NCBI GenBank assembly: GCA_038049695.1
Contig: CP142457.1
Coordinates: forward strand, 24,256,501 to 24,320,500
Reading direction: 5' to 3'
Length of the DNA stretch: 64,000 nt
Origin: Cinnamomum chago
Taxonomy: Eukaryota > Streptophyta > Magnoliopsida > Laurales > Lauraceae
Shown here in pieces: positions 25,569 through 55,480 of this stretch. Both the position numbers and the translations under genes were made by a program. A model generated the notes under the pieces. The model saw nothing but the letters and a program-made list of their open reading frames with translations. It had not been told where the DNA came from and made no database searches. How positions within the stretch are numbered: position 1 is the first letter of the stretch; the number at the start of each line of letters is the position of its first letter.

Positions 25569-26649
25569 TGTTACACCCTAACCCAATTTAACCTTGTTTA
25601 GTGCTAATTAAGTGTGTTTTAGCTAAATTAATTATGCTTAGCTACTAATTATGGTAATTAGTGTTAATTAGTCCTTATGGGTCAAGTTAGTTGAGTCTTG
25701 AGCCTTAGATGAGTGAGTTGGAACCAAATTGACTAGATTGAGTAGACTCAAGGGCTTTTTCGTAATTATCGATTTTCTCATTTTGCATCATTTGTTCGTC
25801 ATCTTGGCGTCAACACGTGTATTTCGTCAAGCACGTCGAATTTCGTGTTGAACTTTGCTTCATTTGAGCTGCCATTAGATAAATGGACCGTCATTTGACT
25901 CAAAATGGAAATATACAACTTTAGTGGACTTTCTTGCAAAAAAGGGACATCTTTGTCTTTTAAGGGCAACTTTACCCAAGTTGCCTTTTTCATTTTCCTT
26001 TACTACCTTTCTCTCTAGCCTTCTTCTTTCTCTTCTTCATCAACCCATTGAGAGAGGTGGCTTGTGCATTTTAAGACAAGGAGTGGAAGTCTCCTCACCT
26101 TCTTCATCCTCTTCATCTTCACCATCTTCTTTTACTAGTTGTTGAGGAGAACCCATCTCCTTCATCCCCTACTTTTGTCAAATTCGGATTTCTTGATATA
26201 GGTAAGAGTAAAACCCATTTTGCTTGTGTTTTTGAGTTACATTAGAGTCAAGAGACTCATAGTTAACCATGCATGACCATTCATTGGCTCTTCTTCATGT
26301 GGGTTCATTGCTAGGGTTTGATAATTTGGGGGCTTTTGAGTTCTTTTGAGCCAAGTGGTGAAGAGAGGATTTGGAAAGCTTTAGTGAGGCAATTATAAGC
26401 TTAATTTGGATTTACATATTGTTTAAATACATTATGAGACTCTTTCTTAATGATTTTAATTTCTTATTGAATGAATGGATTGGAGTGTTTTATGGTTTTA
26501 ATTGATGAAATTGATTGGAGGGATTACATGTTGTAAATGGTAGTATGGAGGCTCCATTTCTTGTACAGGTTATGTGATGGAAGGGAGTTGAGAAGTGGAT
26601 GGGGGAAGAAACACATGAGGATTTCGAAAATAAGGAATTCTGGAGCATC

Positions 26650-26862
26650 CGCTAGAGCGAACAGGGGTCTGGAATACTCACTCGAGCGACCCAAAAGGAC
26701 CGCCCGAGAATTACCTCTCTGGATGGCATCTGATGGAGAGAACATGGGTCCGCTCGAGTGAACACCATTTTGAATCCATCGCTCAAGCGAACAATAAGGG
26801 TCGCCCGAGCGACCAACCCTCTGGATGGGGTTCGCTTGAGCGAACAAGGGTCTGATAGAGCG
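26650..26862. repeat. Palindrome cassette A (CTCGAG core)
   Basis: Eight degenerate GCTCGAGC-type palindromes with centres near 26654, 26683, 26705, 26755, 26784, 26806, 26837 and 26857. The first six form two units of exactly 101 bp with internal spacings of 29 and 22. The consensus is close to TTCGCTCGAGCGAAC. Single-base variants GCTCAAGC and GCTTGAGC occur. Confidence 0.85.
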
Positions 26863-29269
26863 AACCTGAAGTGAAGGCTGGGTCTCCTTTTGACCTAATT
26901 TTAAGGTAAATTTTCGCCCCTAATTCATAATAACCCGCCTTAATCATCTCTAATAGGTAATTACAGTGTGCACCCTTATTTCTATAGGAATCTAGGACCC
27001 ATAAGACCCTTATGACCATAGAATGGAACCGTTAACTTTGTTATTTGGTCCAATGAGCAATCATTAGTCTAGCACTATGCCATGAGGGTTGGTTTGGAAA
27101 TTCAACGCATTTCTCTTGATAAGTGACATCCAACAAGATAGTAGTATGTTCACTTTCCAAACCTACCTTGTATTGGACGGTGAGGGACTAAAAGTAATAG
27201 TCTAGTATTGGTTAGTAAAAATGTCTGCATCTCATATTGAAGTCAAATCTTCCTTATTGATATCAAATCCTTAGTAATTAATTAGTTGAATTATTAGTAT
27301 TAATTGTGGTCCGATTCTCTATTTCCAATTGGTGGCTTAATTATCTTACAACAGTTTCGGTATTTACTGAAATTGTGGATTGAGTAAGGATTCAACAGTA
27401 TGTGATTATTATTCGATTCGATTATGAACAAGTGAATGTAGACTTACTCAAATCCGGTTATTATTTGATTCGATTGAGTCGGCACTACTTATCTTCGACC
27501 TTGTGATACCCGACGGAGTTGAACTTGGTTTAGTTATTCGAGACTACTGCAGTAAGTCATTTGGAGCACCGGAACTCCAGACCTGGGTAGCCAGCTAGCC
27601 GTTGACTTGGCCGCTAGTGACATCCTAACTAAATTCGCTCTCTTTTAAGAGGATGACCTCAATGTAGTAGCTAATTAGTATGTCTTATTCCCTTTTTGAT
27701 TCACAAGCATAAATTATTTGATTTTCGCACAATTTGCCTAGTTATTACTTAATATTGACATCTGTTAATTTAATTGTCTTTTAATTCAATTTGAAATATT
27801 ATGTGTCGCGACCCCGGACCGGGAGACCCCAATCCGGGATCGGGACTAAGGATTGGTGTTATTAAGATGATTACCTACATCCTCAAAATAATCTTATTTA
27901 ATTTCCCACAGGTGTCCGCGGTGAGGATATCAAAACCTTGCATGGATATTTCTTTTTAATGCGGAAGCGTGTAGCAAATCAAATAGTTAGACTATCTCTA
28001 GTCATGCAAGCATTTACATCAATATCAAACTGTATCAGAAAGAGCAATGATATATAGCAATGTTTCCCAAAAGTTGTTAAAGTTAGACAAGTTATCATTT
28101 AGTTACAATCCCCAAAATTAGAGGCCAACAAAGGCCAATATTACAAAATAATAACCCAAAGAATAGTTAACAAGTCCTTCCCAAAATGTTACGCCTCTTG
28201 GCAACCCGATGTCTACATGACATCGTCAGCACGCCACTCAACTAGAGGCTGCAGCTCACCTACGGCCTCCTCCGGCTCCTCCTCAAGGAAACCGGCAACG
28301 GGACCTGAGTACCAAAGCAAAGGATCAGACACGACGGTCTGGCAAGAGAATGACAAGATACAACAACAATAATAGAGGAAATCTCTTGAAAAGCATATAA
28401 ATCTGTTTAAGCAAGAACTCTCATAAAGCAGGTAAATCATTTGCTATAAAACAAGTAAACAAGATAAAACATATGAGGTAACCAAGGAATCGGGAATAAC
28501 AAGGTGGCAATCACATAAAGCTAAGTCCTCTGTCACTAAAGTGACAACAGTATCACGGGACGTTGATCTCAGTCACACAAGGTGAGGAGAAACAACGTAT
28601 ACATATATACAATATAACTATACGGGAACGGGACCACGGTAGCGAACCGGGTATCGGGACGGGGCCACGGTGGTAAACCGGGCATCGGGATCCAAACTGC
28701 AGCTGGCGGGACGGGAGAGGGATTTCCAAGTCAGTGGATCAGACTGACAAGGTATCCAAGCTTAGTGATGCCGACTCATAGGTTAAAACCAATCGAGACA
28801 TATCAAGTATTCAAGTACAGTAAGTAAACGGGTAAAACGGGGGTGCTCAAGGGCACACTGTCTTTTCATGTCGGGCAACACATTTCGGGACAATTCACTG
28901 TCACTATTGTAGCTCCAAAGCTTTTGAGAAAACAAGTCACGCGGTGAAATTCCTGGGAATGAGGTGAAACAATGCACTATAATGAAATTCGGGCAAAATA
29001 TCAATTTAGAAATCCAACTAAGTGAATAGGGGTCCCATATGTCTACTATAGCCCTTACTTGGTACTCTTTGAGTTTTGAGACATTCCGGGCTCCTTATGC
29101 ACTTCTACGATTTTCCAAATTTCGAATGACATATTTGTGATATGGTTTCTTTCACGGAGGCCTTGTACAATGCCTCAAGGATCTCCTTCGACTGATAAAG
29201 CTCAGTGCTTGATCGAACCATAGAAACTGGCTCGAATGAGGAATTCTCTGAAACCTGGGGAATTTCGGT

Positions 29270-29705
29270 CACCTGGGGTCACCTGGCGGTTAGCCGCCGT
29301 TGGGGCATGCGGCTAGCCGCTGAGTGACCGCCCAGCTGACCGCCACTGTGCTGCAGGAGATACAGCTTACTGGAAGGCTGGCCGCCCAAAAGCGGTTACC
29401 TGGCGGTTAGCCGCTGATGCATTCGGCGGTTAGCCGCTGGGTAACCGTGGAGCTGACCGGATTTCAGGGGAGATTTCTGATGCTCTCTGGAAAGGTAACC
29501 GAGAGTGGGCGGTTGGCTAGCGGTTAGCCGCCGATGTGTTCAGCGGTTAGCCGCTGGCTAACCGTGAGGCTGACCATGTTTTAAGGGGGAAAACGATGCT
29601 CTCTGGAAAAGTCACCGCGGTGCGCGGTTAGATGGCGGTTAGCCGCCGATGGGTTCGGCGGTTAGCCGCTGGCTAACCGTGAGCTGACCGCTAGTTACGA
29701 AAATG
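29270..29705. repeat. Palindrome cassette B (GCGGTTAGCCGC)
   Basis: Four tandem units of 117, 117, 115 bp and a last unit. Each holds two 12-mers GCGGYTAGCCGC exactly 23 bp apart, starting at 29286/29309, 29403/29426, 29520/29543 and 29635/29658. The copy at 29309-29320 (GCGGCTAGCCGC) is a perfect palindrome; the others carry one C to T change in the centre. Further half-sites (GGTAACCG, GTGACCGC) fill the units. Confidence 0.95.
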
Positions 29706-30444
29706 CTCACTGTGCTCGGTTTTGAGTCATTTTCCTCCTCAAAACCATCTTCCTCACATCCACAAAGTCCTTACAATAATATTGAGCTAATAGCTCCTCC
29801 AATGCACCTCCTTACACTTCTCCAAATCCCCATTATGAATGCTCTCCATCACTTCTTCCATGTCAAGTCCAATGCAAAGAAAAAGGGAAGTAAACCATTT
29901 CACAAACATTCATCTAGGCTATCACAAGGACAATAAATGCTCTACTAACATGTTTATAAAACCTTGCATGAAACTATCAAAATACATCATGAGCATTTAT
30001 TTCAAACAAACCTCATTAATGAAAGTATGGAAAATCCATAAAGACTATACCAAATCATTTCAAAATTAAAACATCCAAACATTCACTTGCCTCTAATCCA
30101 AGCTAGCTGAAAACAAGTCTTTGATCACCTCTATTGCTCAAAGCCAAGCTACAATCAAAAATCCCCAAAACAACCCTAAAATGGGTTACACCAAGCTTGA
30201 AAATGAAAGAGCTTCCAATAATGCACATGTAGAATCTCAATGACTAGAGGAACACTAATCTAAGAGATGGAAATGATCACTTACTTGGATGACCTTCAAA
30301 TGAAGAGGACTAGTTCAAAGAAGATCTCAATGTTGATGAATCCCTCCACAAATAGTATCAATGGAAAGCTTGTGAGATGAGGGAGTGATTGGTGAGTTCC
30401 AATGCTTGATCTATGAACTATTGATATGGCTTGGAGATGAAGAA

Positions 30445-30475
30445 GCAAGAAGAAGAAGAAGAAGAAGAAGCAAGG
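30445..30475 (-). repeat. GAA/CTT trinucleotide run in LTR B
   Basis: About eight 'gaagaa' triplets, the leader-like CTT tract on the minus strand. LTR E has a shorter one near 56230. Confidence 0.85.
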
Positions 30476-32589
30476 GAAACCCTAGACTCAAATGTGTGCT
30501 GGAGCAAGGAAGAGTGAAATGAGAAATGGAGGGTTGGGTTCTCCTTTGTAAACAAATGAAGCTTGGGTCCCACAACTCAAGGTATTACATTAGCTGAAAT
30601 CATCTCTATCGGGGCTTCTAATGAATTCGACGAAGAAGAAATAAATGGTCGCCGAAATATCTAGTTCCCAAAAATTACATGTTTCACGGGTTTCGAGAAT
30701 ATCGAGTTTTGGGTACAGACTTGGTGTGCAAATGACTGTTTTGCCCTCTAGGCTATGAAATCGGTTTTCGGGGTCTCGAATGAATACGGGATCAACATGA
30801 AAGTTGTTGAGATCTACAAGATGCATGCAACGGGCCAAAAACACAATTCACAACAAATCGGGAAATTCCTCGAGAAAATACAAAGCCGAAAAGGGAACCC
30901 CCAAAGGGCCCCACAAGTTACCAAAGCAAATCAAGACGATCGAATCGGCCCAAAACCAAAATCAAGGCTAATCCAAACCCATCTTAACCAGGAATCACTA
31001 ATCAAGCTTAGCACTAACACGCAACTTAATTAGCACTAATCGGGATCACTCGGGTCGGGGTCTTACATTATGTATGTGTGGGATACTTTCTAGATATCGA
31101 GATTGTCTTAGTTTCGGTAAGAGTACCAGCTAGGCATGTCTTGGTCTCGGTTTTATCCATCTCAGCAATAGTGCCAGTGAGACATTTTCCTAATACTGAG
31201 ATTATCCTAGTTTCGATAAAAGTACCAGCTAGGCATATCTTGGTCTCTTGCATCTTGGTAATAGTGTCAGAATGCTTCCATACTAAGGTCACACTTGACT
31301 TCGGCTTCATCTTCAGTTCGGTTTGGTTAACCGAGACGGGCACTGACTCTTAGTCAATCGTAACTGTACTCCCATAGAGACTCAACCACGTTACAGAACG
31401 TGTTGAGTAATGATGACATGCATCGGATAGAGATAAAAAGTTATAATTATCCGGTGGCTACATCTACATCGAGGTAAGGCCCGATGGGACTCTACCTTTG
31501 ATGTCAACCAGGATAAGGTTCGATGGGACTCTACTCCCAAGACATCAGGGTAGTGTCCGATGAGACTCTACCTCCAAAAGTCAACTTTGGGCCTTTATAT
31601 ATACAAGGAGCAGATCCAGAAGAGGTACGCATACACATATACACACCCATATTCTAAGCTCTCCCTTCTTCTTCACTCACTCATCCTTTGTCTAGTTGTT
31701 GAACTAACTTAGGCATCAGAGTGCCTTTGGCTGACTGCAGCCAGGGTCTCTGACCTTTGTTTCTCCTTCCCTTTCAAGTCTTAGGCATTTGATCTTTCCT
31801 AAGAAGTTCTATATTCATATAAACAAGTCCGTAAATATTTAGGCACGTACAATATATTTCCTTATTAATGCCTATACTTGCTGAATCTTCGTATTTAGAT
31901 ACTACTCTTGGTGTCACAGTTGCAGGTGCAACTCCCGGCCTTGAAGAGGCCCAGGAGAGAGAGGAGGGTACCGAGGAGGTTCCTCCAGGACTATAGGAGT
32001 GGTTGGAGCAGGAGCCAATGTAGATGCTTCTTCCTCAGAGAGCGCTATGTATATTTTGGAGATGTTGCAGTTATTGTATGGCTAACCCCTTTTTGTGTGG
32101 GTCACACTTAGTTGTTAGACATACTTTTGATCATATTTTTGGTATTGTTGTATAGGGTTCTTTCACTACATCCTCTTTTGTAAAGCAATAAATATACTTG
32201 TGCAATTCTTTTATATTGAACTTGAATGTTTAACTGGACTGAATGAGAAATGATACCTTCATGTGTATGAATTACAGCTTTCGCTATAAATTAAATGTTA
32301 TTGACAAGTTTTAGTGAGCTCGACTCACGTGTGGAAAAAAGTTGTTTTTCTCCTTCGTGTGTTGTATTTGGCTCGAGACAGGTACAACATCACAGGAGTA
32401 CGTGTGTCTCACCTCGGGGATTACCCTAGGCCAGGGTGATTCGGGACCGGGATGTGACGAAAGCTTTGATTTTAGAAATTGCGTTCCTATATATGAGCAT
32501 TGTAGAATATTAGGATCAATTTTAGAGATTAATAATTTTTTCTTCATGAATCTTATTTGTGAGTCTTTTTGAAAACATCTTTTCCATGT

Positions 32590-32856
32590 GTCAGACATTT
32601 TGCAAAACTTGGATCTAAAACATTTTAGGGTTTTTGATTCTAATGTTCTACAATGCTCTTGTATATATATGAAAACAAACCTAAAATTAAAGACTTCTAA
32701 TGAAACTAGGAAACTAACGAAAGATTCCAATGGAATTGGGAAACTAATCCTAATAACAACTCATTAGGGAAATAAATAAAGAAACAAACATTGTAGACCT
32801 TTTTGGTTCCTACATGTGGGCTACAGTTGGCTAAATCATCCCCAATGGGCCTTACA
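32590..32856 (-). repeat. Copia-like LTR, minus strand
   Basis: On the minus strand it begins TGTAAGGCCCATTGGGG at 32856, preceded by a purine-rich AATCAAGGAGAATAA. It contains 'cctagtttcattagaagt' and a TATATAT-bearing stretch near 32660. The same words occur in the opposite orientation around 25530-25565 and 32465-32520, so two LTRs of one family face each other. The exact ends are uncertain. Confidence 0.5.
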
Positions 32857-32908
32857 TTATTCTCCTTGATTGCAAGAGAGTTCGAACTTGATCTCGAGAC
32901 GTACTTAC

Positions 32909-35129
32909 TGTAAGTCCATGGGGATCCGAACCCTAGAGGGGGGAGGGGGTGAATAGGGTGAGCTCCAATTATGACCAATTTTAACAAATTTAACTTCTTT
33001 AAAACAAACTAGTCACATGTGATGATTAATCATACAAGATGCGGAAGCTAACAAAAGAATCACCACAAAGCAATCACCATCACACAAGGATTTATAGTGG
33101 TTCGGCCTCAATGCCTACATCCACTACCGGCTTGTGATCCAACACCCCACCGGATTTCCACTATTTATGCTTTTCAATAGGCTAAGCAATAACCTTTACA
33201 ATATGCTTTCCAAGGCTAAGCAATAACCTTTACATTGATGTTTTTCAAGGCTTAACATCAACCTATACACTATACTTTTATAGGCTAAGCAATAACCTCT
33301 TCAACCACAAGGTTGGTTATCTCACTAAGATAGTGTCTATAAACACTTGATGGAGATTCAATTAAGCTCATTACAATGCCTCTTAAATAGGCGGATATGG
33401 AAGTGACAAAATAATACACACTCACACTATGAATGCAAAGATGAAAGTACATGAAGTGTGTGTGTGTGTGGTCCTCAATCATTTTGAAAATGAAAGCTCA
33501 TAAATGTAAGCCTAAGGCTTTTGAAAGTTTTAGCTCAAAAACATTTATGATTGATGATAGAATGCAATCACATGTTAAAAGTAACAACTTGTTAATGATA
33601 TCAAAGTTACACAAGTTATATGAAATTAATTAGCTCTAAACATGTGATGCATAGGGATGTCAATCAAATCAACAATGAAGCTCAAAACATAAAAATAGAT
33701 TTGATTGAAAATAGGGGACAAATCATATGTAATTATAAATACAACTTGAAAGAGATATACCTATCAAAGTAAGGCAAGTTGTGAAACTTTAAAACAATAA
33801 TACACATATGATTTGTAAAGATGTTGAATCCAAAACATAAGATACATTTGAAAGAGATTTACTTATGATGGAAAACAACAACCAAAGATTCAATCAAGTA
33901 TATGAATCATGTTACATCTAATTTCAAAGATGTTTCCATTAACATGATCTACTTAGATTTACCAAAGATTAAGTACTACTTGTATTGAATCAATGTTGAT
34001 GCATCCAAAACAATAGATCAATTCAAAATATAGAACATGCTAAGGATACAACACATCATAGTTTATCATGTTACTAAAGATTTACCTAAGATAAAACAAA
34101 ACATGAAAACATATGATTTGTAAAGAAGTTGAGTCCAAAACATAAGATAGTTTTGAAAGTGATTTTCTTATGATGGAAAACAACAACCAAAGATTCAACC
34201 AAGTATAGGAATCATGTTACATATAATTTCAAAGATTCTTTCATTAACATGATCTACTTAGATTTACCAAAGATTAAGTACTACTTGGATTGAATCATAT
34301 GGTGTTGTATCCAAAACAATAAATCAACTCAAAACATAAAACATGTTAAGGACACAACACAAACATAGTTTAACATGCTAGAAATGATTTACCAAAAATA
34401 AAACAAAGCATGAAAACATATGATTAAGGAAAGTAAAGCCTACTTGGTGATTTAACTTCATTAATCCAAGCTTTAGCTTTCCTAATGCTCCCCTTCATCC
34501 CTTAGTTCATTTCCCTTTTATTTGCCTCAAAACCCCTCAAGGAGGGCCTTAAAATTCCCAACTTTTGGCAAAGGAAAGAACTCATATTTATAGCAAAAAG
34601 TGCCCAACGGCTAGTCCTCGATCGACCTGCAAACAGATCTCGGTCGACCGGGAACACACAACGGTCAGAAAAATGACCGTTGGGGCGCCAGGGCAACTTT
34701 CTGCCTGCAGTGTTCCCGGTCGACCGGGACCTCTGCGCCGGTCGACCGGCGACACTGCCGGGGCCCCAAAAACCACTTTTGCAAGTTTCAAAGATTATTT
34801 CATGGTGGAACTTTGGGCCATTAAATCAAGCTTGAATACATGTTTTAAATCATTCTAAGGGGTTTAAAAACATGTAACAACACAAAGCCTAAAATGATTC
34901 AAAACTTTAAAAACAAAGGCTTGCTTGATTTCTAAAAACTTTTTCCAAAAACAAATGCATCCAAGATTGAAAACAAAACATGCATAAATCAATGCTTTTT
35001 CAAGTCTAAAAACCATGCTTGTATAAAACAAGATTTCAAGTTTATTTAAAACAATGCAAGTGTGTGTGAATCAAATGATGCTAGAATGATAATGCATCCA
35101 TCAAATTGCAATCTACAAAATTCCTAACA
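32909..35129 (-). mobile_element. Solo LTR C (2221 bp)
   Basis: On the plus strand TGTAAGTCCATGG...TTCCTAACA, with flanks CTTAC (32904-32908) and CATAC (35130-35134), one mismatch. It is homologous over its whole length to LTR D (47561-49920), with nearly the same blocks in order: 'tttatagtggttcggcctc', two to three ~305-bp tandem repeats (from about 33805, 34110 and 34413), the cassette, and the tail. A TATA box (minus strand GCTATAAATATGAG, about 34582-34595) follows the cassette, so transcription would run leftward. No internal domain is present. Confidence 0.82.
34618..34751. repeat. Palindrome cassette C (GTCGAC core)
   Basis: Palindromes TCGATCGA (34618-34625), CGGTCGACCG (34641-34650), TCCCGGTCGACCGGGA (34714-34729) and CGCCGGTCGACCGGCG (34736-34751). 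Centres pair at 24 and 22 bp, and the pairs repeat after about 100 bp. Between the pairs is a hairpin CAACGGTCA...TGACCGTTG (34660-34682). The cassette ends about 20 bp before the leftward TATA box. Confidence 0.93.
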
Positions 35130-35134
35130 CATAC

Positions 35135-35747
35135 AATGCCCTAGTAGACATGTCAATATGTCATACTAAAAGAGATTCTATCATAACTCCTCACATTGAT
35201 CCTTTCTTTGACTGTTCTAACTTCATTGGATATAGTGTGGAGATTCTTCCATGATGAATAAATGTGTATGTAGTGTCCTGCATCCCATGGTTCTATTCTT
35301 GTTAGTATCTCTAGTATCCATCGCACCACACTAGATCTTTATAGTTTACACTCACACCAAAGGTTGCAGGTTTCATTAACTCTGGAACAAAATAGAGTCG
35401 ATGTTGTTCATGCACCCTCAGCCTTATTTGATCCGTGGAAGTTTGTAATACAATGTTCTTTGAGTTTCCACCATCATTCATTATCAGACGATCCTCCCCC
35501 ATTTATTTGTCCTTTTGGATCGCATTTCTTGACTAGATTCTTATTTCTTAACTGGTTTTTGAACAGTTAGTATAAAGTTTTGTAGCACCATCCTTTGTTT
35601 CATCAGTTTTCGCCTTAGTCTCCATAGGCATCAACTTGCTCTATTGTTTCTTCTTCCGTTTCTATGGTACGAATTTCTATTTTTCCCCCATTAAATTGGT
35701 AGTCATTGAGTGAGAGCTCGAAGAAAGTTTTATTCTATTGCTTAATT
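35135..35747. other. Unassigned sequence between LTR C and the Harbinger piece
   Basis: No protein text recognised on either strand. It may include decayed intron or downstream exons of the Harbinger transposase, but no DDE motif is readable. Confidence 0.4.
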
Positions 35748-36158: not shown

Positions 36159-36632
36159 ATTGATGTAACGACATTAGTTAACAGTAACACACGATCTTGT
36201 TTATCCATGCTGCGGTTGAAAATAAAAATACAACCAAATATAAGTTATGACATTCTAAAAAATATAGTAGCAATCATTTTCTTGTCCATTATATACTACA
36301 AATTAATAAAAGTGTTCATCATAATCCAACAAACTAAATAAAAGACATTCCTTGTCCAAACAGCCCATGTCTTAGTAAAAAATATACATGCAAAAAAAAA
36401 GAAAAAAAAAGAAAGCATAAATGAGTCACACCTCACAACCAAAACCACGAATTACAAGTCCAAGATAACAACCTAAAACATCAAACTAAACATTACATAG
36501 GAAGCTAAGTATAAATAGCTTGTAGTAATCATTATCCATGGCCAAAAATTGTGAGGCCATATCTTCATTCCCTAGTTGTCGAAATGCTCCTATCTTTATC
36601 ATTGGCTATAGATCAAGAGGTAGTAATGCTTC

Positions 36633-39699: not shown

Positions 39700-41049
39700 A
39701 ACCTACACTAAGTCGGGTCCGACTTTGATATGGTTGAAGCCAAGTGGTGTCGACTCGTGGAATGAAGTGTATAAAATAACATAACATAGTACAAACCAGA
39801 TCATATCATGCGGTATATAATCAGAACTTATCATAAGTATAACTGAACAGAAACAGAAGTCGATATAAACATAAACAGGTGCATAAAAAGATATACATGA
39901 ACTAAACAGAAGTATGATCAACTCATACGAGAATACTGGAAACGGAATGTAAATGAATGCATATAGATCATATACGAAATCAAGATATGAATCAAGCCAA
40001 GCCTATGGTCTTAGGAATATTCGTGGTCTTCACCATCCAACTCGGTGTAGTACTAAGGATTCTAGTGTTTTTGGGCTACAAAGGAACCGTTGGCGTTACT
40101 TAATGTGGACGCCAAATCCCTTAATTATAACACATTTGGTTCGGATCCTAAATACGAAGAACACGAGACCCCTTATGGGTGCATGGTAGATCACACTGCA
40201 CCCACATGAATTACAAGTCCATTTGGCATGATTTAGGGTTCAAGTGATCCATCCTTAAGGTCCACCTAGTGGGCCAAAACCATCTAAACATCCTGATGTT
40301 CTTCCCTTGGCTCGCAGTACATTCCGGTTGACAAGATTTTAAATCCAAATAACCCCTTTCTCTCCCAACCTCTAATCAATAATGTGTATTGACGATTCAA
40401 TTATATGCTTGAAGAGCTTTCCAATGGTATGTAGACCTCCAAAATCGATTGTATGGATCAAAAGTTATGGCCGTTGAAAGTTTCTAGCAAGAAAAGGGGG
40501 CCAGTTGGAGGCTAGCTGCGAGGTGACCGCGAACAGACTGAAAAAAGTGTGCATTCAGTTTCTGTAACCGCGGATTTGGAGGTTAATCGTCTGCATGCGA
40601 ACTGAACCCGAAATGGCTCTGTTTAGGTGATTTTCAAGCTCCATTACACCCAAGCCTTCCATAAGAGATTTTCCTACACAAAATGAGCCTCCAATGCTAA
40701 CTCCAAACCACCATGCAACATCCCCAACCAAAAAAAAACCCAAAATTAACGTACTGCTAAACCCATTAACAAAAATAATAAACAAATCGGGAAAATTAAC
40801 AAGATGAGAAATAGTTTAACATATGAGATGGAATTGAGTTTCTAAAACACGAATCGTGTAAAGACTTATAGAAATGAAAGTGCATGTACAAAATATAAAT
40901 TGTTTTACTTGCCTTAAGGTGCTTGGAACCAAAATCAAGCTAAATGAAGCTCTATTGCCCAAACAAGCTCTCAAAACTAAAAACCCCCAAATGTAAAAGT
41001 CAAAAGAAGACCATACAATGGTGAAATATCTAGAAATGAAGGAGGAGAA
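39700..41049 (-). repeat. LTR F, left part (related to LTRs B and E)
   Basis: It carries the same order of weak landmarks as LTR B: a cassette-like stretch at 40505-40600, then 'gctcaaaactaaaaacccccaa' near 40970 resembling LTR B near 30135-30170. It is interrupted at 41050 by Copia-2 and continues at 45543, where a minus-strand splice-donor-like GGTAAGTA occurs near 45621. The outer ends are not resolved. Confidence 0.4.
41045..41049. repeat. Left target-site duplication of Copia-2 (GAGAA)
   Basis: GAGAA here is repeated at 45543-45547 after the right LTR. Confidence 0.8.
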
Positions 41050-41361: not shown

Positions 41362-41441
41362 AATCTCCACCTTGGCAAACATTGAAACTAATCCTCATAC
41401 ACAAAACACGTCTCACCATCTCCACTTGCCCCTTAAGGTAC

Positions 41442-45270: not shown

Positions 45271-45283
45271 CTCTGATACCGTT
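45271..45283 (-). promoter_or_regulatory. Copia-2 primer-binding site
   Basis: Plus-strand CTCTGATACCGTT; the minus strand reads GGTATCAGAG, complementary to initiator tRNA-Met. Confidence 0.85.
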
Positions 45284-45542
45284 TGTTATGATCTAGGGCT
45301 TACGAGAAGAGATCAATCACGCACAAGTGAACACAAAGATTTACGTGGTTCGACTTTTGGCCTACTTCCACGGGAAGATGGGAGAATTCACTATGCAATA
45401 AGAAGAGGTGTTACACCCAAACACTACTTTTTAATCACAGTAGACCTATAATAGGCCTACTTCTAATCAAAGTACAAGTTGGGCAATCCAGGGGCCGGTT
45501 AACCAAGATTGATTAACTTCTATTAAGCCATACAAATTAACA
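45284..45542 (-). repeat. Copia-2 5' LTR
   Basis: 259 bp, similar to 41050-41361 except for a deletion of the 'atatcatagagactcttagcc' region, which could include promoter sequence. Confidence 0.88.
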
Positions 45543-46150
45543 GAGAACATGCATTCATAAAAAAATAGACTTCCTACAACTGATAAGAAGTAAGAGAAAG
45601 GAAAAAGTGGAGAAATACTTACCAATGTAGAAGATAGGGAAGAGTTGGGGAAGGAGAAAACTTGGAGAAGATGAAGATGGAAGAGCTGTAGCTGAATCTC
45701 TCACATGCACTCTCTAAATTAGCATCGAGGGATTGAGAGGAAGAGATGAAGAAGGGGAAAATGGAAAGGGAGGGCTTCAGCTGGAAATAAGAAGAGAGAA
45801 AGTAATTGTTGGAAAGGGTTTGGTTCTTTTAAAAATGGAAATTTTCTACATGTTGCATGCAAGTCCAGGTTCAAGAGGTTAATATCAAACTGGGGCTTTT
45901 GGCTGGAAAAATGGGCCTGGACGGATCTAAATTGCTTGGGGTTAAAATATGAAAATCAAAGTCCATGATATGCACTATGCAATGCACCCAAAAATCACAA
46001 AAATCTAAAGACACATAAAATCCTAAAATGGGTCAACTCTTATTCTATTCTATAATACTAATTTCTTAACTACAAGCCTTGGATTTATTTTATGGTCCAC
46101 AAAATTCCCTCTCAAGAGAGTGGTGCACTTTGGACATCTAAAAGTGGGCA
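45543..46150 (-). repeat. LTR F, right part
   Basis: Continues the sequence interrupted at 41049. It has a minus-strand donor-like GGTAAGTA near 45621 and leader-like sequence. I could not find the right end. 46150-46770 contains nothing I recognise. Confidence 0.35.
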
Positions 46151-46771
46151 ACTCTTGAGGTTTCACTGATGTTGATGCTGGCCTTGATTAAGAGACCAGG
46201 TTTTCTTGCCACCCACCACCCACTATGGGCCTAATTATTTGCATTAAATTACAGACAAATCCAAAATCTATAAAATATTTTATTGCCATATTAGGATTAT
46301 TGTTTGCCCACTTGTGCACTTTCTACATACTCTGCACTTCCTGCCATCCAACAAAACTAGTCAAATTTTTACTTGCCATATTAGAATTATTGTTTGCGTA
46401 CTTCTACACTTTCCATCATCCTACAGAATCAATTGAAGATTTAGTTACCATATTATAATTTCTATTTGCATACTTTTGCATTTTCTATTTTGCAATTAGA
46501 TTACAATCTTCTATTTTTATTATTAGACAACTATAACCCAATACAAGGGGCATTAAGGTTAGTCCCTTAAAATCATAGCCACTCCCATCACTAGCCACAT
46601 ATCTCCCTGTATTCTTTGCAAGCACTTGAGCACTTGACATCTGAAGCCGCTTCCAAGAGCAGGCACATGTGTGTTTACTTCTACCCCATCAACTTAGTAG
46701 TGATTTTTGTAAACAACTGAAAACGAAATAAGAGCCATCTTTGTATTCTCACAAAAGTATAAATACTTAGG

Positions 46772-47560
46772 CTACTTGTCCTTTGAGATAAAAGCTATGA
46801 ACCCCTCAAGACCACTGTGTACTAGCCTCTCTGCCTTAAGAGTTGAAATCAACCGGGTATCTAACCTCTTCTTAGATCCTTCAAAGATAACTCTTGTACT
46901 AGATTCATCTCTCCTGAGGGTCACAGTCTTGTGGAAACAACCCATACATGCCCGATACTTCCCTAGCCAATCCATCCTTAAGATAACATCGAAGTCATGC
47001 ATTTCTAAGACTATCAAATCTACAGGCATCAACAACTCACCTATCTGCACCCTACACTCAGGTAAAACATCTTACATACTACTCTCCTGCCTACCAGGGT
47101 AACAATCGCAAGTACAACCCACAATTGCTCGGGCTACCTCTGATTGTCATGGCAAAGTGCAGGGCAATGAAAGAGTGTGTAGATCCATGATCAAACAAAA
47201 CTCTAGCGTCATTATCACAAACAAACAGCTTACCTTCCACTACTGTGTCTGCTGCTTTAGCTTCTTTGTTTGTCATGGCATACACACATCTCATTGCTTG
47301 TGGGCGCTGTTGTGGCTGTTGCCTTTGTTGTCCTTGCCTCTGTTGACCTTGCCCTTTTTGCCTTGGCCTTTGCTGGCCTTGCACTGGTCTCTGCTGCTGA
47401 TATTGAGGTGGCCTTTGAGCTACAGGTAAAGCCTGTCTGATGGGCTGAGCCTAAATGGGTGAAGGGGCATGTTGCTGCTGTTGTTGACCCCTAGCCACAT
47501 CACCCATATCACACGGACAGTCATTGACCGCATGATCCATAGAGCCACATTTGAAATAAG
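46772..47560 (-). pseudogene. Gypsy protease and second zinc knuckle
   Basis: Minus-strand Ty3/gypsy. The zinc knuckle reads Y-F-K-C-G-S-M-D-H-A-V-N-D-C, where the first cysteine has become tyrosine. A glutamine-rich linker follows, then a retropepsin with V-L-F-D-H-G-S-T-H-S-F-I (D-H-G in place of D-S-G) and I-L-R-M-D-W-L, then S-G-L-E-G-F-I-A. The sequence stops before RT. The solo LTR D sits exactly at the knuckle start; the gag part continues at 49921. The altered active-site loop suggests a dead protease. Confidence 0.85.
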
Positions 47561-49920
47561 TGTAAGTCCATGGGGATCCGAACCCTAGAGGGGGGGTGAA
47601 TAGGGTGAGCTTCAACTATGACCAATTTTAATCAATTTTAACTTCTTTAAAACAAACTAGTCACATGTGATGATTAAACATACAAGATGCGGAAGCTAAC
47701 AAAAGAATCACCACAAAGCAATCACCATTACACAAGTATTTATAGTGGTTCGGCCTCAATGCCTACATCCACTACCGGCTTGTGATCCAACACCCCACCG
47801 GATTTCCACTATTTATGCTTTTCAATAGGCTAAGCAATAACCTTTACAATGTGCTTTCCAAGGCTAAGCAATAACCTTACATTGATGTTTTTCAAGGCTT
47901 AACATCAACCTATTCACTATGCTTTTATAGGCTAAGCAATAACCTCTTCAACCACAAGGTTGGTTATCTCACTAAGATAGTGTCTAACATACACTTGATG
48001 GAGATTCTATTAAGCTCATTACAATGCCTCTTAATTAGGCGGATATGGAAGTGTAATTCTAATACACACTCACACTATGAATGCAAAGATGAAAACATAT
48101 GAAGTGTGTGTGTGTGGTCCTCAATCATTTTGAAAATGAAAGCTCATAAATGTATGCCTAAGGCTTTTGAAAATTTTAGCTCATAAAACATTTATGATTG
48201 AGGATGTAATGCAATCACATGTTAAAAGTAACAACTTGTTAATGATATCAAAGTTACACAAGTTGTATGAAATGGATTAGCTCTAAACATGTGATGCATA
48301 GGGATGTCAATCAAATCATCAATGTAGCTCATACAACATAAAAATAGATTTGATTGAAAAGAGGGGACAAATCATATGTAATTATAAATACAACTTGAAA
48401 ATGATATACCTATCAAAGTAAGTCAAGTTGTGAAACATTAAAACAATAATACACATATGATTTGTAATGATGTTGAATCCAAAACATAAGATACATTTGA
48501 AAGAGATTTTCTTATGATGGAAAACAACAACCAAAGATTCAACAAAGTATATGAATCATGTTACATATTTCATTAACATGATCTACTTAGATTTACCAAA
48601 GATAAAGTACTACTTTGATGAATCAATGGTGATGTATCCAAAACAATAGATCTATTCAAAATATAGAACATGCTAAGGATACAACAAATTATAGATTAAC
48701 ATGTTACAAAGATTTACCAATGATAAAACAAAACATGAAAACATATGATTTGTAAAGAAGTTGAATCCAAAACATAAGTTAGTTTTGAGAGAGATGTTCT
48801 TATGATGGAAAACAACAACCAAAGATTCAACCAAGTATATGGATCATGTTACATATAATTTCAAAGGTTCTTTCATTAACATGATCTACTTAGATTTACC
48901 AAAGTTAAGTACTACTTGGATTGAATCATATGGTGTTGTATCCAAAACAATAAATCAACTCAAAACAAAACACATGTTAAGGACACAACACAAACATAGT
49001 TTAACATGCTAGAAATGATTTACCAAAAATAAAACAAAAGCATGAAAACATATGATTAAGGAAGGAAGAGCCTACTTGGTGGTTTAACTTCATTAATCCA
49101 AGCTTTAGCTTTGCTAATCATCCCCTTCATCCCTTGGTTCTTTTCCCTTTTGATATGCCTCAAATCCTCTCAAGGAGGGGTTGAAAATTCCCAACTTTTG
49201 GAAAGGGAAAGAACTCATTTTTATAGCAAAAAGTGCCCAACGGCTAGTTTACCCGGTCAACCGGCCATAACAGGCAGGTTAACCGGCCAAGCACAACGGT
49301 CATAAAAAGAGCCGTTGTGTTTTGGGTCATCCTGCACTGTGGCCGGTTAACCGGGCTAACATGGCCGGTTAACCGGCTACACTGCGGGTTGACCACCCCG
49401 GTTAACCCCATGGTTAACCCCACAGCACCAAAATTCCCAAAAAATGCATTTTTCACAGTTTTGCTTGGGGGAACTTTTTGGCCACTAAATCAAGCTTGGA
49501 AAACATGTTTTAAAGATTCTAAAGGTTTTTAAAACATGACATAAAAAGCCTAAAAAGTTTCAAAACTTTTAAAACAAAGGCTTGCTTGATTTCTTGAAAA
49601 CTCTTTTCAAATGAAATTGCATACACAAATGATTCTTTTTGTGATGAATGTATGCAAAACTCAAACCTAAATTCACAAGATGATTTTCCAAATATAATGC
49701 ACAATGAATTAAGTTTTCAAAAGAGTTTTGGGTTCTAAAACCAATGCATCCAAGTTTAGAACCAAAACATGCATATAACACAAACTTTTCCAAATCTAAA
49801 AACCAATGCATGTATAAAACTAGATTTCAAGTTTATTTAAAAACCAATGCAAGTGTGTAAATCACATGATGTTAGAATGATAATGCATCCATCAAATTGC
49901 AATCTATAAAAACCCTAACA
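47561..49920 (-). mobile_element. Solo LTR D (2360 bp) with perfect ATAAG duplication
   Basis: TGTAAGTCCATGG...ACCCTAACA on the plus strand, flanked by ATAAG at 47556-47560 and 49921-49925. It is inserted within the gypsy gag zinc-knuckle region. It is homologous to LTR C along its length, with the same tandem repeats (from about 48455, 48742 and 49046), the same leftward TATA region ('ctcatttttatagcaaaaag', 49214-49233) and the same hairpin, but a different palindrome word. Confidence 0.95.
49252..49420. repeat. Palindrome cassette D (GTTAAC core)
   Basis: CCGGTCAACCGG (centre 49258), GGTTAACC (49280), CCGGTTAACCGG (49348), GCCGGTTAACCGGC (49370), GGTTGACC (49390), GGTTAACC (49403) and GGTTAACC (49415). 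The first two pairs are each 22 bp apart and repeat at exactly 90 bp. A hairpin CACAACGG...CCGTTGTG (49292-49319) sits between the pairs, as in cassette C. Confidence 0.95.
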
Positions 49921-50976
49921 ATAAGCACCAAGTATCCTCCTACACTGACTCGATTCGTGGCCTTTGCCATAATGAGTACAAAACACTGGCCTTGGTTGAG
50001 AACTACCCCCTTGCTTGAATTTCTTGCCTTGTGATTGTTATGGTGAGCTCTTGCCAGAGGGAGTGAAATTACGCTTCGGCTCATACGGAAGAATATTCTC
50101 TTGTTGCCGCTCTGCATAATATGCCTTGTCAACTGCATCATTAAGAGTAGTAGGCCTCTGACACATGGTAATATCCCGTTGAATGGAGGGCCTCAATCCC
50201 TCAATAAATAGTTCCACTTTCTTCTCTTCTGTATCAAATTACTCAGGGGCAAAGCGTGAGAGCCGGGTGAACTCATGAATGTTCTCTACCACGGTCATCA
50301 ACTCTTGCTTCAAACTTTGAAATTATGATTTCTTTTGTCGGGTGACATGGGCTGGATTAAATTTCTTCCTGAATTGCTTCTCAAATGTGGACCAAGCATC
50401 AACCTCTGTTATTATCCTGTAAGGCAGACGAACACTCTTCCACCAAGTGTCAGCGGCATCTATAAACATAGAATCTGCCAATGCCACTTTCTGCTTGCTT
50501 GTACGCTGCATAGTCTCAAATACGTTCTTAGTGTGCATTATCCATTCATCTGCAATCAAAGGATCTTCCAACCCAGTGAACTCAATTGCTCCCCGCTTTC
50601 TGAGCTTTCGTAAAGTGAATTAGGACCACTCTCCTTAGGCTGGACCTATCTCTCCATCAAGTTCATGATCTGCTCATTCTGTCTCACTAACTGTGTGGAC
50701 ATAGCCTACAAAATATCTCTCAACCCACCATCACAACCTAGTGAACTCAATTGCTCCCCGCTTTCTGAGCTTCTCGTAAAGTGAATTAGGATCACTCTCC
50801 CTAGGCTGGACCTATCTCTCCATCAAGTTCATGATCTGCTCGTTCTGTCTCGCTAACTGTATGGACATAGCCTGCAAAATATCTCTCAACCCTCCATCAC
50901 AACCTAGAGGCGGTGGAGGTGGGAGTGGCAAATCTTCCACCGGAATATCCTCATGCCCTTCACCATATAAAAACAT
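49921..50976 (-). pseudogene. Gypsy gag with a 55-codon duplication
   Basis: A likely start at the ATG on 50976-50974 reads M-F-L-Y-G-E-G-H-E-D, followed by a proline run and N-E-Q-I-M-N-L-M-E-R, which appears twice because of a tandem duplication. The capsid block at 50323-50571 reads A-D-E-W-I-M-H-T-K-N and A-A-D-T-W-W-K, then W-S-T-F-E-K-Q-F-R-K-K-F-N-P. Near 49960 lies C-T-H-Y-G-K-G-H-E-S-S-Q-C, the first knuckle. Stops after R-xx and frame changes show decay. Confidence 0.85.
50576..50906. repeat. 165-bp tandem duplication in gypsy gag
   Basis: Copies at 50576-50740 and 50741-50906. The unit is 165 bp (55 codons); one extra base in copy 2 near 50775 breaks the frame. Confidence 0.92.
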
Positions 50977-51599
50977 GTAGATCGAAAGGTCTTAAACGCG
51001 CACGTTTTCGAATAGTCAAAGTATTCAAAGTGCGTAACACATCACTAGCATACACAATGGAAAATCATGAGCATGCTAGGCGAATCATGGGCTTCGTACC
51101 AATGAAGGGCTACAAATTAAAGCAAGCCCAAATAAATTAGCTATTACTTAGGATTATGCAAAAAAAAAAACAATAAAATCATAAGACCCCAAAAAGCCCC
51201 AAAAACCAAAAAAAAAAAAAAAAGAAAGAAAGAAAAGAAAATCATAAACAAAAAATGTATAAACAATATAAAAACACAATTGTTTGATCATTATAAAAGG
51301 CATAGGCGAGCCAAAGCGGTGAAAAGTCCCTTTAGTAGAACAATCGCGACTAGAATAGGTCATGAGTCAGATTAATGAGATAGATTGTGAATCTTTTCCC
51401 ATTACTTCAAAACTAGGATTGCCCTAGGAACCACAATAATTAATGATGGATGGTGTCTTTAAATTAGTGGATACCAAAGAGGGTGACTTGGCATACCACA
51501 TTAGAGATTTAAGAACTGCTCGAGGCATTCATATTATTGACAACAACTAAGGCATATGTCAATATCAAAGCTAATACAGTAGTCAAATTCATTAAAAAC
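50977..51599. other. Unassigned interval with A-rich tract
   Basis: It contains poly(A)-rich stretches at 51159-51170 and 51211-51224. No coding signal recognised. Confidence 0.5.
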
Positions 51600-52235
51600 A
51601 ACATAATAACTTGACTTGGCTCTCCATGGTATTCATTACAGACAATGGTCCACAACTTATATCTCAGCAAATGAACGAGTTGTGCACAAAATACAACATA
51701 GAACCACATCATTCCCCATATTACCCCCAAAGGTAGTAACTAGCCAGACCATTTGGTCAAAAGCATTGTGGGTGTGCCAAACTTCCATAAAAAAACTCCT
51801 ACTGGTGAACCCCTTGTTCTTTGACCTACGGAATGGAAGTTGTCCTTCCCTCGAAGTCCTTCACCCGTCACTGCGCATCCAGCTAGATGAAGATATGAAA
51901 GAAGACCAAAGGAGACGATCATTGCTACTTCAGCTAGACCTACTTGACGAGAAAAGAATGAAAGCAGCAGAGCATGCACAAGTATATCGGAAGCGAATCG
52001 CCAAAGCTTACAACAAACATGTGAAAGAAAGAAAATTCAAAGTTGGCGACTTCATGCTGAAGCGCATCATTCCATCCCAGCTTCCGCATCCCAGAGGTAA
52101 GTTACGACTCAATTGGGACAACCCTTATTAATTAAAGAAGTATATTATGGAAATGCATATAGACTAGTAAATGCAGAAGGAGAAGAGCTCCTCGATCCAT
52201 GGAACGCTATCTACCTAAAAAGGCACAAAGTATGA
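51600..52235 (+). pseudogene. Gypsy integrase C-terminal fragment, plus strand
   Basis: It starts in the integrase core (I-T-D-N-G-P-Q, then N-E-L-C-T-K-Y-N-I-E-P-H-H-S-P-Y-Y-P-Q). A frame-shifted F-S-L-T-Y-G-M-E-V-V-L-P follows, then the long frame P-S-L-R-I-Q-L-D-E-D-M through A-K-A-Y-N-K-H-V and F-K-V-G-D-F-M-L-K-R. It ends D-P-W-N-A-I-Y-L-K-R-H-K and a TGA at 52233-52235. The second catalytic aspartate is visible; the glutamate region is scrambled. Opposite strand to the neighbouring gag, so a different element. Confidence 0.88.
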
Positions 52236-52527
52236 CCCTCCCCTACTTCTTGCTGAGTATGATCCTCCTTGCTCCTTGGCGTAGTTGTAGAAATCCTGTA
52301 GGAGGACTGAAGAGATGCACTTTGATCTAACCTGGAACTCAAACACACACCAATACTTAAAAATACACAAAATGGTGAGTCTGCCCCACACAATTTCCGC
52401 ATGGTTAAAGCCATCCAATGTGAAGGTTTGTAGGTAAGTTCGCCCATGTCATGAAAGCTTCTCGGCCGTTTGTTAAAAAAAAAAAGAAAAAAAAGAAAGA
52501 AAAAAGAAAAGGAGAAAAGAGACAAGA

Positions 52528-52722
52528 GAAGCCACGGTGGAGTTGCATGAGGTATGGGTATGCTCCCCATGGCTAATGCTTCAGAAGCCATTACCCTAGG
52601 ATACCCTTTAATTTATAAAAAGAAAGAGGCGAGAAATGAAGCCACGGTGGAGGCGAAGGAGGTATGGGTATGCTCCCCATGGCTAATGCTTCAGAAGCCA
52701 TTACCCTAGGATCCCCTTTCCT
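52528..52722. repeat. Two ~85-bp direct repeats downstream of the gypsy integrase
   Basis: 'gaagccacggtggag' through 'cagaagccattaccctagga' occurs at about 52528-52602 and 52637-52712, separated by A-rich sequence. They probably belong to the 3' untranslated part of the gypsy element. Confidence 0.8.
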
Positions 52723-53399
52723 TTCGACCCCTTTTACCCAAAAAAAAAAACTATTAGAATTAGTCTCGCTGGAATGACATGGATACTGTCACGCCCCCAA
52801 ACCGAAACCTCGGGGGCGCGAATGAGATTTAAGCATAAATGTATTTTACTTCTCCCAAGATCCGCGTGTGTGAAGACAACACATTCCAACACGTTCTGAA
52901 TATTTTTGCGGAAGCTTTTGTGGCGTTACGACCCGGAGTCCATGGCCATCGGATTCCGCATCGCACTCAACCATTAGCTTATAGCTATCATATCAAGAAT
53001 CATATCAGACTGGAGTAAACCATCACAATAAATTACAGAGCCGACAACAACAGGATATTACATTCCCAAATATGTTCAAGTTACAATTATCAACGTACAT
53101 CAATTAAGAATCCCAAGAAAAAGGCTAATAAAAGCCATACAACAATAAGCTATAATCACTACCCCAAATATGACGTAGCTCCGATGTCAAGCTCAATGTC
53201 TACATGACATAGGCGACAAACCAACCTGCAAGGCATGGCTCCACAGCCAATAAAACACTCAACTCGGGGCGAAGAAATCTGAACCTGAGTACCAAAAGTA
53301 GTGGGTCAGACACGACGGTCTGGCAGGTGGATGAAAAGATCACAAATATACTAAAGAATAAAACATATGATAAATCATGCTAATCGATCAAATGCTGCA

Positions 53400-54150
53400 T
53401 ATAATTAAACGGGTGCAAAATCATGGATCTCGGGCAAAACATGTATTCGTTTCAAGCATGGGTAAAACATGAATATCTAATAAAACATGTGTTCATTTAC
53501 ATCATCTATAAACATAGATATTTGACAATCGGGTGTTCGTCTAAAACATGTATAAATATAGTGGTTTGACAAAACAAACGTTCATTTGAGACTTAGGTAA
53601 AAACATAAGTATACGACAAACCAGGTATTCGTAGTAGTCTGGCAAAACCAATGTCCATTTGAAACATATGGGGAAATACGGATGTTTAACAAACCGGGTG
53701 TTCATTTAGAACCGGTGTAACCAAAGAAATCTGACAAAACTAGTGTTCATTTAAACATATTTCAACGCATGGATATTTAACAAACCGGGTATCGTTTAAA
53801 ACAGGTATAAACGTAGGGATCTGGCAAACAAGTGTCATTTGAATCATATTTCAAAGCATGGATATTTAACGAATCGGGTAATCATTGAAAACAGGTATAA
53901 ACATAGGAATCTAGCAAAACGCGTGTCGTTTAAAACATATTTCAAAGCATGGATACTTAACAAATCGGTATCATTTAAAAACAGGTATAAACATAGATAT
54001 CTGATAAACCAAATGTCCTTTAAAGCAAGCTCGGATATTTAACAATTCGGGTATTCCTTTAAAACATGTGTAATCATATAAATCTAGCAAAATCATTGAT
54101 CGTTTGAAACATATGTAAAAGCATGGGTATTCACCCAACCGGCATTCATT
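53400..54150. repeat. ~90-bp diverged tandem array within LTR E
   Basis: About eight units built on 'gcatggatatttaac', 'aaccgggtat', 'aaacaggtataaacatag' and 'atctggcaaaac'. Clear unit starts lie near 53759, 53849 and 53939. LTR B lacks this array. Confidence 0.85.
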
Positions 54151-55443
54151 TAAAACATGTGCGTGTACAAAGAACAGAACACAATATAATAATAACTGAA
54201 TTTACATTGGAGAATATGAACACTTGTTTAAATAACAACTTTCATAAAGGAGACGAATCATTTACCGGAAAACAAGTAAGCAATATAAAACGTGTCGGGT
54301 ATCCAAGGAATCGGGAACTGGCAAGATGGCAATCACAGGAAGCTAAGTCCTCTATCACCGAAGTGACAAGAGTATAACAAGACGTTGGTCTCAGTCACAC
54401 AAGGTGAGGAGACTCAACGTAAATCATATATACAATATAAATATACGGGAACGGGACCACGGTAGCGAACCGGGTATCGGGACGGGACCACGGCAATAAC
54501 CGGGTATCGGGATCCAAACTGCAGCTGGCGGGACGGGAGGGAATCTCCAAGTCAGTGGATCAGAATGACAAGGTTCCCAAGCTTAGTGATGTCGACTCAT
54601 AGGTCAAAACCAATCGAGACATATGCAAGTAAATCAAGTACAGTAATTAAACGGGTAAAACGGGGGTGCTCAAGGGCACACTGTCACTTCATATCGGGCA
54701 ATACATTTCGGGACAAATAACTGTTACTAGTGTAACTTCAATGTTTTCGGGAAAACAAGTCATGTGATGCAAATCTCGGGAAATGAGGTGAAACAATGAA
54801 CTATTACAATTTCGGGTAAAAGTATTAATTTCAAGATCTATTTAAGTGAATAGGGGTCCCGTATGTCGATTATAATAATTTACTTGGTACTCCTCGAGTT
54901 TGAAGACATTCCGGGCTCCTTATGCACTTTTACTATTTCCAAAACTTAAAATGAGCTTATGGGTAGTACTAGATGTTACAATAGCAAAAATCAAGATTAT
55001 AAACGGTCCATCCTAGGCATGACATTAATCCGGAAACATCGAGCAACCTATTCAGTCACCGAAAGGAATAGAATTCGCGATAACCAAGGGAAAGACTTGT
55101 GTTTAGATGTAAAGAAGATATCGCGTCGTTCCATCCCGTTCAAGATTGAAATGGATTGAACTTCGATGCCACCGAACCAACCGTGAGGCGTGTCGGCTCA
55201 AGACATTCTCACGCACGGTCCAAACAGTCCAAAAAGGGTAGCCAGGGTCCCACCTAAAACCAAGAATTAGTGTCTAAATCAACACCATTCTTTTCTTTTA
55301 GTTCCCTAGTCTTGAAGACCTTAGATTAGGGCATAATTGGTCTTAACACTAAGGTATATACCCCTAGGACTCATAGAAAGCCCAAAGGTTTCAAAAAAAA
55401 AACAATATCAAATTTCACCTGAAAAGCCTCCCAGTTAAAGACA

Positions 55444-55480
55444 GTCCGATCGATCGGACCTGGGCGTGCAGGTCCGGGAA
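55444..55480. repeat. Palindrome cassette E (GATCGATC core), reduced
   Basis: GTCCGATCGATCGGAC (55444-55459) is a perfect 16-bp palindrome. A half-site GGTCCGG follows about 23 bp later (55471-55477). The cassette occupies the same place relative to the LTR start as cassette B (about 1.38 kb in both), but only one full palindrome remains. Confidence 0.85.

Follow-up and report, generated by a model that had tools for sequence, protein, structure and literature searches.

Regularly spaced palindrome arrays with exchanged words in long terminal repeats of Cinnamomum chago

The stretch of DNA described here, 64,000 nucleotides of the Cinnamomum chago genome (contig CP142457.1; G000:C7:24256501-24320500, hereafter the window), has an abundance of long terminal repeat (LTR) elements. 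Several of the LTRs carry cassettes, short arrays of palindromic or near-palindromic words, which look like fast-changing sets of docking sites for a DNA-binding protein. The cassettes and related stretches are labelled A to F. LTRs holding B and E are termed family 1, and those holding C and D family 2. Whole-genome counts cover 1.06 Gb in 14 contigs. The features are listed below in window positions, and a strand is named where one was assigned.

26677..26843, cassette A: four near-palindromes of the word TCGCTCGAGCGA, centres at 26683, 26784, 26806 and 26837 (101, 22 and 31 bp apart)
27804..31067, family-1 solo LTR, copy B: ends TGTCGCGACC...GTCTTACA, target duplication TTATG
29285..29669, cassette B: four pairs of GCGGYTAGCCGC sites (eight sites in all), pair distance 23 bp, tandem unit of 115-117 bp
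32909..35129, minus strand, family-2 LTR, copy C: flanks CTTAC/CATAC with 4/5 letters alike, strand taken from the primer-binding site and polypurine tract of fetched relatives
34585..34593, minus strand, TATA box of copy C: minus-strand CTATAAATA, directly adjoining cassette C
34603..34682, minus strand, three AACGG cores near the first C sites: CCCAACGGCTA (34603-34613) and the inverted repeat CAACGGTCA-N6-TGACCGTTG (34659-34682)
34617..34751, minus strand, cassette C: GGTCGACC sites, centres at 34623 (decayed), 34645, 34721 and 34743
40507..40589, F: stretch that by eye resembles a decayed B (GGAGGCTAGCTGC, GGAGGTTAATCG)
47561..49920, minus strand, family-2 LTR, copy D: target duplication ATAAG, situated between gypsy-type protease and gag pieces (minus strand)
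49218..49226, minus strand, TATA box of copy D: minus-strand CTATAAAAA
49252..49419, minus strand, cassette D: GGTCAACC then GGTTAACC, centres at 49258, 49280, 49348, 49370, 49403 and 49415
52787..56834, family-1 solo LTR, copy E: target duplication GATAC
55444..55459, cassette E: one 16-bp palindrome, GTCCGATCGATCGGAC, in this copy

A sequence-only reading of the window had proposed A to E, and perhaps F, as palindrome cassettes in several unrelated or diverged LTRs, with neighbouring centres commonly 20-24 bp apart and, in B, a tandem unit of 117 bp. Palindromes are present in B, C and D and, singly, in E, and the spacing was borne out (22-23 bp in B, C and D), as was the unit of B. A and F have no perfect palindrome of at least 8 bp. 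Three of the four near-palindromes of A carry central changes that fit decay of CTCGAG, and F resembles by eye a decayed form of B (GAGGCTAGCTGC). Seven of the eight word sites of B are one pair short of a perfect palindrome (GCGGTTAGCCGC). Centre distances are 22-76-22 in cassette C, where the first site has decayed to GATCGACC, and 22-68-22 in cassette D, which has two further GGTTAACC sites. The unrelated LTRs number fewer than five, as self-comparison places C and D in one family and B and E in another.

All four are LTRs by structure, with TG..CA ends and a 5-bp target duplication that is exact for B, D and E and has one mismatch for C. Cassettes C and D occupy the same position in two copies of one LTR family with 92% identity over 1.8 kb (self-comparison). 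B and E lie between conserved parts of two solo LTRs, whose sides are 85% and 79% identical and whose middle aligns poorly. Fetched loci contained two further family-1 relatives, one in L049 (83% to B) and one in L047 (75%), both with CTCGAG at the cassette position. The four copies of family 1 thus display GCGGYTAGCCGC (B), GATCGATC (E) and CTCGAG (L049 and L047). Differing words at the same position in C and D and among the four family-1 copies indicate that in both families words have been swapped on the same scaffold. As CTCGAG is the word of cassette A as well as of two family-1 LTRs, this word is perhaps used on more than one scaffold. Cassette A was also compared with family 1 as a possible distant member; the flank alignment has a z of about 3, but an unrelated control also gives 2.9.

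A few other features of family 1 were observed. LTR copy E has a tandem array with a 90-bp unit (5.8 copies at 53638-54157), and none is listed for copy B. In L047, at about 3250-5480, a family-2 LTR is inserted in a CTCGAG palindrome of a family-1 LTR with a target duplication GAGCG, read by eye; here one array-bearing LTR landed within the array of another. A TATA-like site on one strand of L047 was not used, since it has no counterpart by eye in B or L049.

Family 2 reads on the minus strand, based on the orientation of the primer-binding site and polypurine tract in fetched two-LTR elements. In L037, L044 and L050 a TGGTATCAGAG-type site stands reverse-complemented next to one LTR; in L037, L045 and L050 the other LTR is flanked by AAAGGGGGAGAT, exact or nearly so, again reverse-complemented. 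On the element strand the array is downstream of the LTR start and directly upstream of the TATA box, which places the family-2 cassette in U3. In four two-LTR elements of family 2, the internal open reading frames are all of 103 amino acids or fewer, and the three that have at least 90 amino acids display no Pfam match at an E-value of 0.1. The family-2 copies examined therefore do not encode a factor that might bind the arrays; for such copies a binder would be a host protein or the product of an autonomous relative.

The window has three exact matches to the consensus YCYAACGGYYA, and all are within cassettes C and D (34603-34682, 49236-49317). AACGG is described as the core motif of MSA elements, to which MYB3R factors bind, and the SCL28 promoter as having four copies in both orientations (PMC8964727). 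By analogy, the AACGG cores hint that family-2 LTRs may be under MYB3R or cell-cycle control and active in dividing cells.

The sampling of family-2 copies bears on the word counts. Loci L001-L030, the copies most closely related to C, are hence biased toward the C word (L001 duplicates C and was dropped). L031-L050 comprise 20 stretches, none longer than 9.9 kb, that surround exact family-2 anchors. An anchor beside the cassette, TATAGCAAAAAGTGCCCAACGGCTAG, has 2902+3056 matches genome-wide with up to three mismatches, and its control has 0. In L031-L050, picked by exact flank match, GGTCGACC is found at two to four sites in 24/24 cassettes, and family 2 is dominated by this one word. Exact-flank patterns with a letter other than C at the first variable position are found at 249+259 = 508 places. 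Among the 100 matches listed for that pattern are the versions GGTTGACC, GGTAGACC, GGTTAACC and GGTCAACC, and several are still GGTCGACC.

Within copies, the words are alike. The mean likeness of sites is 10.54/12 within a copy vs 7.03 between copies, for 37 sites in 10 cassettes picked beforehand as arrays, and none of 5000 label shuffles reaches it. Uniformity within an element, as proposed from the sequence alone, is thus the rule, though not a strict one. Cassette D is mixed, with GGTCAACC at the first site and GGTTAACC at the others, and one recurring family-2 subfamily has two centre versions per copy (GGTTGACC with GGTAGACC or GGTTAACC), which counts against strict uniformity. The companion proposal, that words differ between elements, stands in respect of the swaps seen in both families and needs tempering in three respects: the words have a common skeleton (see below), family 2 has mostly GGTCGACC, and CTCGAG is found both in A and in family 1. 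A single fixed word per family was looked for and is not what the copies seen of either family display (four copies for family 1).

Arrays of at least three same-core palindromes number 25 in the window and L031-L050 together, compared with 0 or 1 in each of 20 Markov-shuffled sets; the scan is not neutral, as these loci were chosen around family-2 anchors, and the window alone has two arrays (C and D). GTCGAC is the word in 23/25; of the remaining two, one is D and the other a CTCGAG array of L049. Additional arrays, built from other words, came to light in a wider scan.

The regular spacing is found throughout the genome. For six words, pairs of the same word whose centres are 12-42 bp apart were counted, with each word's letters reversed as the control (also a palindrome for five words). 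Together these pairs are found at 40,879 places; one LTR may contribute several places and copies are related by descent, so that the counts are not independent events.

CGGTCGACCG pairs: 15,559 places; control 0
CGCTCGAGCG (CTCGAG word) pairs: 11,406 places; control 0
CGATCGATCG pairs: 9,407 places; control 0
GCGGTTAGCCGC (B word) pairs: 1633+1678 places; control 0
CGGTTAACCG pairs: 1,120 places; control 0
CGCTATAGCG (CTATAG word) pairs: 76 places; control GCGATATCGC 124

The last word has fewer pairs than its control, and by count there is therefore no evidence of its enrichment. The control word GCGATATCGC, with its 124 places, may itself serve as an array word, in repeats of some other kind.

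For five words the centre distances were listed for the first 50 unique places, mostly in contig 1 (distance in bp:number of pairs).

CTCGAG: 19:4, 20:13, 21:12, 22:16, 31:4, 32:1
GTCGAC: 20:9, 21:2, 22:35, 23:3, 30:1
GATCGATC: 20:3, 21:18, 22:11, 37:1, 41:10, 42:7
GTTAAC: 14:8, 18:1, 20:5, 22:25, 25:1, 31:1, 32:9
CTATAG: 21:21, 22:2, 30:2, 31:6, 32:7, 33:1, 34:1, 36:1, 38:2, 41:4, 42:3

Three bands, 19-23, 29-33 and 40-43 bp, make up 13/31 of the allowed distances and hold 235/250 of those listed (CTCGAG 50, GTCGAC 50, GATCGATC 49, GTTAAC 40 and CTATAG 46 of 50 each). Among 100 listed pairs of the B word, the distance is 22 bp (26) or 23 bp (74). The spacing is more regular than chance would give. 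When the words are pooled, the resultant peaks for periods between 10 and 10.5 bp, and so do GATCGATC and CTATAG singly. That distances near 31 and 41 bp occur as well as those near 21 bp points to the DNA helix repeat. Many unlike spacers occur at the same CTCGAG distances, and the spacing is therefore not merely that of one copied stretch, the copies still being related.

When the inner 10-mers of the six words (CGGTCGACCG, CGCTCGAGCG, CGATCGATCG, CGGTTAACCG, CGCTATAGCG and CGGTTAGCCG) are aligned on their centres, a half-site CGNTN is present in 6/6 and on both sides in 5/6, with variation mainly at ±1 and ±3. The words are therefore not arbitrary, and to call them different overstates the case. 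This provisional pattern was recognized only once the words were in hand, some of which had come from a scan with a G+C filter. Outside the masked family-2 cassettes (357,049 bases) there are 20 CG-ended 10-bp palindromes, of which 18 represent six different CGNTN words (16 are possible) and two fall among the other 48 words, one of these being CGGCTAGCCG of B; copies are not independent, the mask is imperfect in that some of the five GTCGAC hits are probably in family-2-like cassettes with changed flanks, and most of the remaining hits are sites of arrays already counted. The cores are also better kept than their surroundings. Measured against a reference copy that has three of the four sites, mean identity over 55 C-type copies is 0.944 for the core 8-mers, 0.961 for the AACGG inverted repeat and 0.780 for the rest of the cassette; D was left out, and the nearest relatives of C make up over half of the set.

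Helix-phased symmetric sites beside a TATA box, better-kept cores and a common half-site fit an array of cooperating dimers at a promoter. We favor such a reading, with about as much doubt as confidence: the cassettes would be promoter-proximal arrays of dimer-binding sites in LTR regulatory regions, read on one face of the DNA. Each palindrome would be a two-fold symmetric site, with half-site CGNTN, for a DNA-binding protein that we infer to be dimeric. Paired sites, spaced mostly by about two helix turns and more rarely by three or four, would put two dimers on the same face and allow cooperative binding. Tandem duplication and conversion between units would spread one site version through a copy. 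Related LTRs would switch version at ±1 and ±3, where the differences would be specificity contacts. The factor would presumably come from the host and activate transcription, and a change of word would be adaptive.

Several points weigh against this interpretation. Pairs of the CTATAG word do not outnumber those of its control. GTTAAC, the D word, has its own best period at 9-9.5 bp rather than 10.5 bp and also pairs at 14 bp (8/50 listed), and the distances of CTCGAG and GTCGAC are bunched too tightly to fix a period. Distances between pairs (68-76 and 85-117 bp) are not, as a rule, helix multiples. A strand, and with it a place in U3, was assigned to the cassettes of family 2 only, among A and those of the two families. 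The shared descent of the copies deprives the counts of independence. The main point that a protein site leaves unexplained is the complementarity of the arms at ±7 and ±8, described below, which such a site does not need.

A broader version of the dimer-site interpretation is tentative and appreciably less probable. It has the words forming a recognition code common to several plant LTR families, in which one class of dimeric proteins would make a fixed CGNT contact and changeable ±1/±3 contacts at phased pairs, and subfamilies would switch word between paralogous binders. Such a shared code predicts further members among the 16 possible CGNTN palindromes. If it is true, tens of thousands of LTR sites in one plant genome would advertise their driving factor, readable from sequence, and how retrotransposon families partition and change host control would become directly testable. 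Word changes could then be compared with bursts or with escape from silencing.

Of the other explanations, one that we regard as unlikely is that the cassettes are anti-silencing or partner-recognition arrays like the VANC motifs of VANDAL elements. The protein of an autonomous relative would bind its own word and protect or activate matching copies, and the word would change as families compete. One word per copy, co-evolving tandem units and word swaps match what is described of VANC motifs (PMC5735166), and the four family-2 elements examined look non-autonomous, so that a partner would be needed. However, VANC motifs are described there as non-palindromic, in one orientation and in DNA transposons, and the cassettes are palindromes or near-palindromes, those of B to E in LTRs. 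In addition, no candidate protein was found in the open reading frames that were searched, namely 20 of those in the window with at least 90 amino acids and the three from the loci, and CTCGAG is perhaps shared between scaffolds, those of A and family 1.

Slightly less likely still are hairpins in RNA or single-stranded complementary DNA, or cruciforms, acting for example in RNA pairing or dimerization; uniform words would let any site pair with any copy of the family. The arms are the attraction of this proposal. Outside the core, family-2 arms stay complementary while their letters change, at ±7 (0.66 vs 0.43 shuffled) and ±8 (0.52 vs 0.28) and weakly at ±5 (64% vs 58%), over 91 distinct 18-mers in all cases, and the listed matches of the non-C flank pattern have GGCCGG..CCGGCC, TGTCGG..CCGACA and AGTTCGG..CCGAACT on one scaffold. 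On the other hand, there is no excess at ±6 and ±9, and the shuffles ignore descent. Hairpins make exact helical spacing unnecessary, the family-2 array is upstream of the TATA box and so would not be expected in the transcript's 5′ leader, and the non-palindromic centres GGTTGACC and GGTAGACC recur in one subfamily.

It is improbable that the arrays are a functionless by-product, in which tandem duplication and template-switch correction of imperfect palindromes make and keep mirror words. The tandem nature of the arrays, the variation in site number between copies and the extension of palindromes beyond the core would be expected of such a process, but not the recurrence of the spacing of about 21-22 bp with many unlike spacers and in six words, the better conservation of the core or a half-site common to the words. 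More improbable again is a role as CpG-dense signals at fixed spacing for the DNA-methylation machinery instead of transcription-factor sites: CpG is at both ends of the inner 10-mers in all six words and at the centre in three, and centre changes in A and D fit CpG deamination (CTCAAG, CTTGAG, GGTCAACC), but the centre CpG is kept at 0.95-0.98 in two of the three sites measured and at 0.87 in the third (55 copies), and neither uniform words nor symmetric non-CpG letters are needed for such a signal.

Other repeats were encountered that are distinct from the cassettes. At window 19710-19822, TAACGGCCGTTA near-palindromes 92 and 20 bp apart probably belong to a small inverted-repeat element; they were left out as another cassette, lying by eye within a foldback-like stretch. 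A long CT-rich tandem array with periods of 41 and 107 bp is at window 61442-61923. A further word is found at L048:7724-7968, where TCGCTATAGCGA-type sites are 159, 65 and 20 bp apart. The CGCCATATGGCG palindrome array at L033:251-336, which we take to be subterminal repeats of CACTA type and thus probably part of a DNA transposon, was set aside.

The arrays have parallels in several known systems. Among these are LTRs of the Tnt1/Tto1/Retrolyc1 copia group, described as having a hypervariable, modular U3 (PMC1838419) with BII boxes (PMC3316501). There also, related LTRs have conserved flanks and exchanged U3 regulatory sequence, and factor-binding boxes are in U3. Unlike the present case, the term palindrome is absent from the main texts of these two papers, and neither helical pairing nor a half-site common to unrelated families is apparent in the relevant passages. 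ONSEN and other Brassicaceae COPIA LTRs are reported to have inverted-repeat heat-responsive sites, nTTCnnGAAn, which were gained by duplication in ONSEN, and COPIA families are reported to have acquired heat response on more than one occasion (PMC5059998). The likeness is in the inverted-repeat sites in LTRs; the difference is that ONSEN, as described, has one site type in adjacent units (at most 5 bp), not pairs about 21 bp apart. Cassettes A-E contain no TTCnnGAA or GAAnnTTC (TTCNNGAA, GAANNTTC). In a 2024 analysis of plant LTR binding sites, the term palindrome is absent from the main text (PMC11656987).

In DNA transposons, the VANC motifs of VANDAL elements are similarly short, element-specific motifs in co-evolving tandem units with shifts of specificity between families, yet of 8-9 bp and bound by an element-encoded protein (PMC5735166). 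CACTA subterminal repeats, bound by TNPA-like proteins, are described as direct and inverted repeats that form stem-loops and whose motif differs between families (PMC2613891). They serve transposition at the ends of DNA transposons, whereas cassettes B-E are in LTRs with 5-bp target duplications; B-E display neither CACTA ends nor a 3-bp duplication. No description of helix-phased palindrome arrays with swapped words in LTRs was found among the matches listed from an open-access collection without most subscription journals, judged mainly by titles and abstract openings; of 184 papers there that contain at least one of the words, the 15 listed have titles on unrelated subjects. As far as those listings extend, the arrays appear to be a previously undescribed variant of themes already known in transposable elements, namely the exchange of U3 sequences, inverted-repeat sites in LTRs and fast-changing motif arrays.

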